From: Dyadobacter fanqingshengii
Lineage (GTDB): Bacteria > Bacteroidota > Bacteroidia > Cytophagales > Spirosomataceae
DNA length: 64,000 bases
Assembly: GCF_023822005.2 (NCBI RefSeq)
Contig: NZ_CP098806.1
Location: 3,472,001-3,536,000 of the forward strand
Reading direction: 5' to 3'
The notes beneath the pieces are model-generated. The model searched no databases. It worked only from the letters and a program-made list of their open reading frames with translations, and was not told where the DNA came from. Each line of letters starts with the position of its first letter. Position 1 is the first letter of the stretch. Positions 21,523 through 57,265 of the stretch are shown here, piece by piece. Made by a program: the position numbers and the translations under genes.

Positions 21523-21541
21523 TTCAGATATATATTAAAAT

Positions 21542-21592
21542 AAAAAGCTCAAAGTTTGCAGACATTGCGTCGTCTGAACTTTGAGCTTTTTA
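21542..21592. terminator. bidirectional intrinsic terminator
   Basis: A long stem, AAAAAGCTCAAAGT with ACTTTGAGCTTTTT, continues inward as CAGAC with GTCTG. It sits between pheS and the convergent esterase gene. Confidence 0.9.
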
Positions 21593-21605
21593 TTTTCCAG
21601 TATTT

Positions 21606-55277: not shown

Positions 55278-56033
55278 ATGAAAATCGGTTTGGTTTTGTC
55301 AGGTGGCGGAGCACGCGGCATTGCGCACATTGGCGCGATAAAAGCATTGATGGAGCGAGGAATTAAGCCAGACATTATCAGCGGGACCAGCTCCGGCGCC
55401 TTCGTAGGTGCAATGCTCGCGCACGGTTACACGCCGGATGAGATCATTGAAATGATCCTTCAAACCAGCTTTTATCCTTATATCAGGTTTGGATTCGGGG
55501 CAAACGGGCTGTTGCATATGAATAAATTGGAAGCAGTGCTGCGCAAATATATTCCTGAAAACACATTTGAATCTCTAAAAACCCCACTCGTCGTTACAGC
55601 AACGGACATTGGGTCGGGAGAAGAAATACAATATCGCAACGGTGAACTGGCCATTCCCGTGCTCGCCTCTTGCTGCATTCCGGGATTATTCAGCCCTATC
55701 CATTTTCAGGGACGTGAGCTCGTAGATGGCGGTGTGCTTAATAACCTACCCGTAGAGCCAATTATGCAGGAAGCCGATTTCCTGATCGGTATACATTGCA
55801 ATCCATTCACATTAGACAAGCCTATAAAAAGGACCACAGAACTCATCTACCGCAGTCTTATCCTGGCCATGCACAGCAAAACCAAGGAACGTTTCAAAAA
55901 ATGCAACCTGCTCATCGAGCCCGCAGAACTAAGCCGGTTCAGCATTTTCGATTTTCGAAAGGCCGCGCAGTTGTTTGACGCGGGTTACAATTATACGAGG
56001 CGATTGTTGGAGGAGACGGATGTTGATTTTTAG
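55278..56033 (+). CDS. patatin-like phospholipase
   Basis: Lipid acyl hydrolase of 251 residues. The oxyanion motif is GGGARG (10-15), the nucleophile elbow GTSSG (36-40, nucleophile S38) and the catalytic dyad aspartate D150 in DGGV. There is no signal peptide and no barrel domain, so it is a cytoplasmic or membrane-associated form. Its TAG stop is the first three bases of a 59-bp perfect palindrome. It is coupled to the MBL-fold gene upstream. Confidence 0.93.
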   Translation: MKIGLVLSGGGARGIAHIGAIKALMERGIKPDIISGTSSGAFVGAMLAHGYTPDEIIEMILQTSFYPYIRFGFGANGLLHMNKLEAVLRKYIPENTFESLKTPLVVTATDIGSGEEIQYRNGELAIPVLASCCIPGLFSPIHFQGRELVDGGVLNNLPVEPIMQEADFLIGIHCNPFTLDKPIKRTTELIYRSLILAMHSKTKERFKKCNLLIEPAELSRFSIFDFRKAAQLFDAGYNYTRRLLEETDVDF

Positions 56034-56089
56034 CATCTCAACCTAGTAAATCCAAAGTTGAACTTTGGATTTACTAGGTTGAGATGCTA
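56031..56089. repeat. perfect 59-bp palindrome (29-bp arms, one-base centre)
   Basis: The left arm (56031-56059) begins TAGCATCTCAACC and ends CAAAGTT; the right arm (56061-56089) is its exact reverse complement, around a single G at 56060. The first three bases are the patatin stop codon, and the last two bases are the first two of the -7 element of the next gene. No T tract follows, so it is not a standard terminator. See findings. Confidence 0.95.
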
Positions 56090-56095
56090 TATTTG
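56088..56095 (+). promoter_or_regulatory. -7 promoter element of the DUF4143 ATPase gene
   Basis: TATATTTG fits TAnnTTTG, ends three bases before the ATG (56099) and starts inside the right arm of the palindrome. It predicts a leaderless message. Confidence 0.6.
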
Positions 56096-56098
56096 TGA

Positions 56099-57265
56099 AT
56101 GATCCACCGGTATATAACACAGGAAATTCAGGAAAAACTGAGTCGCTCGCCAGCCGTCGCTATATTAGGTCCGCGACAGGTAGGGAAAACGACCTTAGCA
56201 AAGTTCATCGCTAAATCAAATTTGGCAAGCTTTACCTATCTTGATGCAGAGAATCCGCGGGATATGGCTAAGCTAGCTGATGCTTACACCTATCTGGACA
56301 GCTTAAGAGATTCCTGTGTGATTATTGATGAAGTTCAGCTTATGCCTGAGTTATTTTCACTGTTACGACCACTGATTGACGAAGACAGAAGTCCAGGCAG
56401 ATTTATCTTACTGGGATCCGCCTCGCCTGCCTTGGTAAAAGGCGTTTCCGAGTCGCTCGCTGGCCGCATATCCTACACCGAATTGACCCCAGTGGGATTA
56501 TCTGAACTTACTGAAACGAAGCAAAAAGAACATCATTGGTTTAGAGGAGGCTTTCCCGAAGCGCTTCTTGCAAATAGCGAAGCAACAGCGAAGGAATGGC
56601 TCGATGATTTCATCAGAAGCTATGTAGAAAGAGATTTAGCTTACCTTTTCGGTGTGGAACTTTCACCTGCAACGCTTCGAAACTTTTGGAGAATGCTCGC
56701 TCATTCCAATGGAAATGTATGGAATGCTGAGGTGTTTGCCCGATCATTGGGCATCACAGCACCGACCGTATTGCGATATACAGGTTTTCTGGAAGGCGGC
56801 TATATGATCAGGCGATTACAGCCCTGGTTTGTTAATGCCAAAAAACGTCTCGTTAAATCTCCCAAAGTATATATCCGAGATACTGGAATTTTACACCGGC
56901 TGCTTTTTATTGACAGTACGGAGGACTTGTACGGTCATCCGGGTATTGGTGGCTCATGGGAAGGATATGTGATCGAGCAAATTGCGCAGCGCATTTCCAA
57001 AGGATTAGAGCTATTTTACTATCGCACGCAGGCAGGCGCAGAATGCGACTTGGTGCTTGTGCGAGGCATAACTCCTATTGCTTGCATTGAAATCAAACTA
57101 ACCAACGCGCCAATGGTTTCAAAAGGTTTTATTAGCTGCACAGAAGATTTGGAGCCAGCCTATAAATTTATCATAACGCCAAGCAGCGACACTTATACAA
57201 CAGCACATTCCGTTACAGTTATCAGCTTATACAATTTTTTGGAAACAGATCTTAACAAAATATGA
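56099..57265 (+). CDS. AAA-family ATPase with DUF4143 domain
   Basis: Cytoplasmic protein of 388 residues. The N-terminal AAA_14-type domain has Walker A GPRQVGKT (24-31) and Walker B VIIDEVQ (74-80) and the sensor-like LLGSASPAL; the DUF4143 part (about 170-340) ends in a nuclease-like fold with D and ExK in AECDLVLVRGITPIACIEIKL. Proteins like this are common, uncharacterised and variable between genomes. It is preceded directly by a 59-bp palindrome that overlaps its promoter, which suggests autoregulation or a self-contained module. Confidence 0.9.
   Translation: MIHRYITQEIQEKLSRSPAVAILGPRQVGKTTLAKFIAKSNLASFTYLDAENPRDMAKLADAYTYLDSLRDSCVIIDEVQLMPELFSLLRPLIDEDRSPGRFILLGSASPALVKGVSESLAGRISYTELTPVGLSELTETKQKEHHWFRGGFPEALLANSEATAKEWLDDFIRSYVERDLAYLFGVELSPATLRNFWRMLAHSNGNVWNAEVFARSLGITAPTVLRYTGFLEGGYMIRRLQPWFVNAKKRLVKSPKVYIRDTGILHRLLFIDSTEDLYGHPGIGGSWEGYVIEQIAQRISKGLELFYYRTQAGAECDLVLVRGITPIACIEIKLTNAPMVSKGFISCTEDLEPAYKFIITPSSDTYTTAHSVTVISLYNFLETDLNKI

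Follow-up and report, generated by a model that had tools for sequence, protein, structure and literature searches.

We analyzed a window of 64,000 nucleotides from the genome of Dyadobacter fanqingshengii, in which a patatin-like phospholipase gene is followed by the gene for an AAA_14-DUF4143 ATPase, with a long palindrome between the two. The locus contains the following features, half-site positions being numbered d by their distance from the palindrome center.

55278..56033, + strand: upstream gene for a patatin-like phospholipase; its TAG stop, ending at 56033, provides the first three bases of the palindrome
56031..56089, no strand assigned: palindrome with 29-bp arms (56031-56059 and 56061-56089, 100% complementary) and G56060 between them
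56040..56057, + strand: left half-site, d20 to d3 from the center, in the family register, letters read from the sequence
56063..56080, - strand: right half-site, d3 to d20, in the family register, with d16 at 56076
56064..56067, + strand: TTTG within the right arm, candidate -33 element (letters from the sequence)
56088..56095, + strand: TATATTTG, candidate -7 element (TAnnTTTG), 20 bp after TTTG, with the ATG at 56099
56099..57265, + strand: gene for the AAA_14-DUF4143 ATPase (388 amino acids, PADLOC family PDC-S01), from its open reading frame and domain profile matches
56666..56818, + strand: winged-helix-like segment, residues 190-240, from secondary structure; residues 211, 212, and 220-222 couple to d5-d8
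56960..57097, + strand: region spanning E288, D317, E331, and K333, within which the putative PD-(D/E)XK site lies
57029..57034, + strand: codons for Q311 and A312, which lie in the turn preceding the putative active site; the residue coupled to d16 is 312

In the left half-site, C56042 and C56043 correspond to d18 and d17, T56044 to d16, and G56046 to d14. The original prediction described the layout correctly: the palindrome is a perfect one of 59 bp around a single G, its first bases are the TAG stop (56031-56033) of the patatin reading frame, and it ends inside the -7 element, the first two bases of which are covered by the right arm. Its view that such symmetry does not arise by chance is likewise upheld. 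Folded as RNA, the palindrome has a z score of -12.98 against 200 shuffles, and its best hairpin score is 29, compared with a maximum of 10 in shuffled homologous upstream regions (n = 181). It had also been judged not to be a normal terminator; indeed, no T tract follows the stem and no terminator-like site was found at 55900-56300, and an intrinsic terminator is rejected. A second perfect inverted repeat, at 21537-21596 of the window, has 20-bp arms, a 20-nt loop, and A-/T-rich outer ends, and looks terminator-like.

We searched the 6.27-Mb genome for further copies. The 18-base half-arm matches exactly at one site only, in both arms; with three mismatches it finds five other places, not above the reversed control. 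The generic family dyad (17-bp spacer) has a single exact match, the window site before its own gene, and with one mismatch it occurs at five places versus one in the reversed control. A REP- or MITE-like repeat family is thus rejected, and the suggested mobile palindromic unit finds no support in a genome that holds one copy. The same genome encodes a second DUF4143 protein (locus L009), a distant paralogue with 29% identity to the window ATPase; upstream of its gene are a short palindrome with 9-bp arms, at -64, and related-looking AT-rich half repeats.

The ATPase contains an AAA_14 domain (residues 18-137) and a DUF4143 domain (residues 177-334), both above cut-off; NCBIfam assigns no family to it. 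Its nearest homologue found is from D. psychrophilus (94% protein identity). A confident AlphaFold2 model (mean pLDDT 91.9) combines an ATPase portion with a winged-helix-like set (helices 190-202, 210-217, and 221-233 and strand 237-240) and a C-terminal α/β part. Structural matches to the whole-protein model (Foldseek, VIA-align) cover mainly the ATPase and winged-helix parts, not the C-terminal domain. An E...D...ExK pattern is present there, formed by E288, D317, E331, and K333, which are invariant in 63/63 aligned sequences and which we take to be the pattern of PD-(D/E)XK nucleases. The window protein matches the PADLOC PDC-S01 profile with an E value of 2.4e-88, and PDC-S01 models match all 63 aligned relatives. 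Passages of a published survey describe PDC-S01 as an ATPase domain fused to a PD-(D/E)XK superfamily domain, place it fourth in frequency among the defence systems of all prokaryotes surveyed, and state that most such candidate systems still await validation (PMC12988326). The window protein and its relatives resemble PDC-S01 in profile match and, putatively, in this fusion, and PDC-S01 is a very common predicted defence family.

We compared the upstream regions of homologous genes. The set comprises 191 DUF4143 loci collected by similarity to one protein, with start codons set by script; 181 are non-redundant, mostly from Bacteroidota, and include one Calditrichota and two KSB1 records. All evidence from it is comparative. 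A hairpin score of at least 10 is found within 120 bp upstream in 130/181 loci, compared with 0/181 inside genes, 2/181 in shuffled sequence, and 23/125 downstream, where terminators are expected. With a 47-bp symmetry scorer, 163 of 180 non-redundant homologues have a palindrome just before the start, versus 2 of 180 after shuffling. The palindrome is thus conserved at orthologues, and on this point the proposal of an operator stands. An odd center is seen in 149 of the 163 palindromes, of which 147 align without a shift. The half-site AWCCNNGNAAATY, with its CC 17-18 bp from the center, varies widely in its letters at a constant register; read from the outside, the consensus has A at d20, then W, CC at d18-d17, two free positions, G at d14, one free position, AAA at d12-d10, T at d9, and finally Y. 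The expectation that copies would always share CCTAGTAAATCCAAAGTT was therefore too narrow, as family members retain the geometry and vary the letters. Positions d16, d15, d13, d8, and d7 are variable and nevertheless mostly mirrored between the arms. Among 130 loci picked for their palindrome, symmetric pairs make up a fraction of 0.85-0.98 at positions d4 to d18, dropping to 0.45 at d24. In the 47 loci of the first and held-out sets that have no clear palindrome, 36 score 9 or more out of 14 for the motif (shuffled, 7/47), which indicates that many of them carry degenerate sites.

The palindrome overlaps the promoter. The Bacteroidota promoter consensus consists of TTTG and TAnnTTTG, and 65/130 palindrome loci have the latter starting no more than 20 bp ahead of the start codon, compared with 3/130 in reversed sequence and 1/130 inside genes. 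Relative to the palindrome center, TAnnTTTG begins at +26 to +28 in 42 loci, the window among this class, and at +6 in another 12; the two registers are ~21 bp apart, equivalent to two helical turns. As in an operator, a dyad lies over the gene's own promoter and is conserved along with the gene. Four Dyadobacter-group loci (L154, L159, L162, and L163) have tandem palindromes, one centered near -95 and one near -19 relative to the start.

We investigated whether half-site letters co-vary with the protein. Half-site similarity tracks protein similarity (Mantel r 0.60, with 200 permutations giving 0.10 at most). For 162 sequences, equivalent to an effective number of 107, coupling was calculated as average-product-corrected mutual information. 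The top pair is residue 312 with d16, at a z score of 16.2, and the next pair reaches 8.4. Residue 312 is in the turn that joins strand 303-309 to strand 315-322, five residues ahead of D317. Winged-helix residues couple to the inner half-site (211 to d8, z 6.8; 212 to d7, 5.9; 220 to d5, 5.6; 222 to d6, 5.0), residues 220-222 forming the start of the third helix of this fold. The correspondence between residue 312 and d16 is chemically sensible: Asn/Gln occurs with A in 34/34 cases, Asp/Glu with C in 33/38, Ala/Ser/Val with T in 43/47, and His with G in 4/4. The window protein has Ala-312, with T at d16. Outside this code are Thr (n = 29; T 15, G 13, A 1), Gly (n = 9; C 5, A 3, asymmetric 1), and Lys (T, 1/1).

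The independence of the couplings was assessed from two sources, disjoint pairs of loci and a held-out set. In disjoint pair contrasts (INDEPENDENCE) of 70 nearest pairs, d16 is best matched, out of 388 columns, by residue 312 (Fisher p 2.1e-7) and d6 by residue 222 (p 9.0e-6); residue 221 is the best for d7, with a p of 5.7e-4 that is non-significant after correction for ~3,500 tests. The best column for d8, d13, and d15 lies elsewhere, and for d8 none of the six best columns is a winged-helix residue, despite the high 211-d8 coupling. Among 30 pairs that differ at residue 312, d16 also differs in 17. Of the other 13, seven have an exchange within a coded class (S/A 2, D/E 2, N/Q 3), and six involve Thr, Lys, or Gly, with T at d16 in both members of the pair. 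Where residue 312 is shared, d16 differs in just 1 of 40 pairs. Residue 311 couples to d13 (z 7.0), and His/Tyr occurs with A at d13 in 37/42 training loci. We do not claim this pair: it often fails on held-out loci, chiefly through C or T/C in place of a predicted T, and residue 311 is outside the six best d13 columns in the pair contrasts. High couplings are also seen between Arg-54 and d3 (z 6.4) and between several N-terminal residues and d24; those with d24 may reflect loci in which palindrome and start codon overlap.

The code was fixed before its use on 86 loci of Bacteroidota genomes that the first draw had not included. Palindromes were found in 54 of the 84 loci with enough upstream DNA, compared with 2/84 after shuffling. 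Without filtering, 36 of 44 non-duplicate loci have a coded residue, and 28 of these 36 agree at d16 by our own count. Four of the eight misses are asymmetric at d16 (L281, L288, L291, and L301), and four are out of the canonical register (L249, L251, L260, and L271), as is at least one agreement (L274). We then applied a register filter (odd center, G at d14, A at d11), which does not involve d16 and was chosen after viewing the raw list; it left 23 loci with less than 90% identity to the training set and to one another, 22 of them symmetric at d16 and 19 coded. All 19 agree with the code (mean of 10,000 permutations 5.4, maximum 13), including 15/15 with less than 70% identity to training sequences. 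The three uncoded loci have Gly-312 with T at d16 (twice) and Thr-312 with A. A wider set of 33 loci came from 18 IMG/VR contigs and 15 plasmids, the plasmids being picked from 391 matching records. An open reading frame is present in 32, and 10 have a raw palindrome score of at least 8; d16 fits the code in all ten. Three of these are near-identical contigs (L348, L349, and L365), one is from Bacteroidota (L366), three are from Alphaproteobacteria (L367, L370, and L373), and three have 27-31% identity, making the alignment of residue 312 uncertain (L358, L360, and L380). Scores below 8 were obtained for the remaining 22: a few (Thermus, Rhizobium, Roseovarius, and Paracoccus) have a poorly symmetric motif, the rest no clear site. 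In the alphaproteobacterial plasmid loci L367, L368, L372, and L373, the gene adjoins a repC, integrase, or recombinase gene.

The outer symmetric 9 bp of each window arm lie beyond the conserved footprint. Symmetry extends by at least 7 bp past d20 in 18/163 loci, compared with 0/1630 offset controls, and given symmetry through d23, an extension of at least 4 bp is seen in 18 of 75 where 0.7 is expected. The letters of the extended arms vary by lineage (window, L031, L033, and L082). Because the other 145 loci have no such extension, recognition does not require the extra symmetry. The original prediction invoked either selection or a recent origin, and each seems to apply to a different part of the arm: conserved contacts would account for ~20 bp per arm, and the other 9 bp look sporadically homogenized. 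Template-switch mutation in quasipalindromes is described as making the arms of inverted repeats identical. Homogenization by template switching would be the simplest cause of the excess symmetry, and it would allow both half-sites to change simultaneously. On the gene strand, mismatches at d4-d20 comprise 40 G-T versus 21 A-C (22 versus 9 clusters) and 169 others; this strand asymmetry is weak.

We examined the patatin locus in 48 Dyadobacter genomes. A full ATPase gene is present in seven, all seven with the palindrome. Two truncated genes retain the palindrome (L206 and L229), two gene remnants are found without it (L204 and L207), and in five genomes there is a palindrome and the gene was not found (L201, L210, L217, L227, and L245). 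The remaining 32 have neither, one of them with an unrelated hairpin (L232). By eye, L203, L204, L218, and L224 retain part of one arm, and L210 retains the start of a decayed gene. At a second locus, gene-less palindromes lie between putative reductase and methyltransferase genes in G040 and G038 (L335 and L347), and in G041 a DUF4143 gene (L163) is still present beside the same reductase gene. Sites can thus outlive their genes, which fits slow decay and also permits another role; the orphan palindromes may be decaying remnants or may serve a separate function. A mobile element ending in the palindrome is unsupported: the seven genomes with a full gene have it at one patatin locus, and other genomes show decay. 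At L031 (the same locus as L206), an ATPase gene lacking its first 116 codons directly follows a perfect palindrome with 30-bp arms.

We propose that the palindrome is probably the site by which the product of the adjoining AAA_14-DUF4143 gene is directed to its own gene. Among the roles originally offered, an operator for the ATPase is the one favored by the conserved palindrome at orthologues, the promoter overlap, and the residue-base co-variation, and the co-variation and the held-out prediction point to the gene's own product as the reader. The protein very probably reads its own promoter, and repression of its own gene would be the most likely outcome. The two arms would be bound by a pair of chains, or by a pair of subunits within a larger ring. 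On each arm, the winged helix would touch the inner half-site at about d5-d8, and residue 312, in a turn of the PD-(D/E)XK-like domain next to the putative active site, would touch the outer base d16. Because the site covers the promoter, negative autoregulation is most likely and would last until release by a trigger; template-switch homogenization of the arms would add the extra perfect symmetry. Counted against self-recognition are the choice of the register filter after the raw held-out list had been viewed, with eight misses among 36 coded loci in its absence, the 30 of 84 held-out loci without a clear palindrome, the 65 of 130 palindrome loci in which TAnnTTTG was not found within 20 bp before the start, the palindromes for which the gene was not found at the patatin locus (5/48) and at the second locus (two genomes), locus L009 with only a 9-bp-arm palindrome, and the position of palindrome centers near -40, which would suit an activator too. 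A more speculative extension, which we consider possible though doubtful, is that the nuclease-like domain serves as the sequence reader through a one-residue/one-base code and is locked on a palindrome that is private to it and covers its own promoter. While bound and silent, the nuclease would then act as a repressor and at the same time as a loaded sensor, which a trigger alone would free or permit to cut, and homogenization would shift the half-sites together, giving lineage-private addresses and paralogues without cross-talk.

Several other explanations bear on the same observations. The palindrome could be a conditional cleavage site, recognized and nicked or cut by the nuclease-like domain when triggered, and thus a target and not (only) an operator. 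The invariance of the four putative active site residues, the location of the d16-coupled residue five positions before D317, which makes the nuclease-like domain seem to read the site, and the half palindromes left by several Dyadobacter gene losses (L203, L204, L218, and L224), which by our own reading look as if broken near the center, all speak for it. However, intact sites are kept before functional-looking genes, the promoter overlap in two helical-phase registers favors regulation, and ordinary palindrome instability also yields half palindromes; we consider cleavage unlikely. Activation, in which the bound protein or a partner boosts the promoter, has less to recommend it and seems quite improbable. 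Class II activators bind near -40, and in the 42 loci whose -7 element begins 26-28 bp from the center, that center falls near this position. Yet both promoter elements stand at the usual distance in the window, and the site covers the -7 element itself at 12 loci, an arrangement that fits repression.

We regard a role of the hairpin in the transcript, as an attenuator, a processing site, or a patatin terminator, as very improbable. The fold is very stable, gene-strand G-T mismatches outnumber A-C ones, and palindromes persist behind patatin without the ATPase gene. However, the T tract is missing, and the candidate promoter lies inside and after the palindrome, so that the gene's own mRNA would begin past it. 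Upstream genes vary by lineage whereas the register to the ATPase gene is constant, the other mismatches far exceed G-T, and a residue-base code requires protein-DNA contact. Least credible of all is a selfish REP- or MITE-like unit that is here by coincidence: gene-less palindromes do occur, but the window genome has a single exact copy, the register is fixed to the start codon of one gene family even in distant relatives, and orphan copies occupy places where relatives hold the gene.

We compared the proposed self-recognition to known systems. Restriction-modification controller proteins and toxin-antitoxin modules have a dyad over their own promoter that is bound by their own product, the arrangement that we propose here. 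In contrast, the reader in our case would be an AAA+ ATPase with a nuclease-like domain, the arms are ~20 bp, and specificity seems to be split between the winged helix and the nuclease-like domain. In PD-(D/E)XK restriction enzymes with palindromic targets, a symmetric site is read near the active site by two chains, much as proposed for the two-chain reading of the symmetric site here, whereas the ~40-bp site in the window is AT-rich, is present once, and lies in the protein's own promoter, with cleavage only putative. Quasipalindrome template switching, as described, resembles our case in that arms are identical beyond what the protein would need (18/163 loci); it accounts for the excess symmetry, not for the constant register or the code. 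In the accessible portions of the PDC-S01 literature we found no mention of a palindrome, operator, or promoter, "palindrom" appearing solely within the name of CRISPR. Combined terms for DUF4143 and palindrome returned no publication in a literature collection of partial coverage, and a description elsewhere is possible; the self-site and code are new as far as this partial search shows.

A readable DNA address in the protein's own promoter would be a first specific, testable activity for PDC-S01 members, and together with the code it would allow the site of a member to be predicted from one residue. PDC-S01 genes may be self-contained regulators, besides or in place of defence effectors. If it is the nuclease-like domain that reads the site, its residue code would also give access to the sequence specificity of the PD-(D/E)XK superfamily. 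As no more than a lead, RNA of the Thermus thermophilus gene TT_P0211, which has AAA_14, DUF4143, and HTH motifs, is reported to be up 6.6-fold in cells that have both plasmid and Argonaute (PMC4406477).
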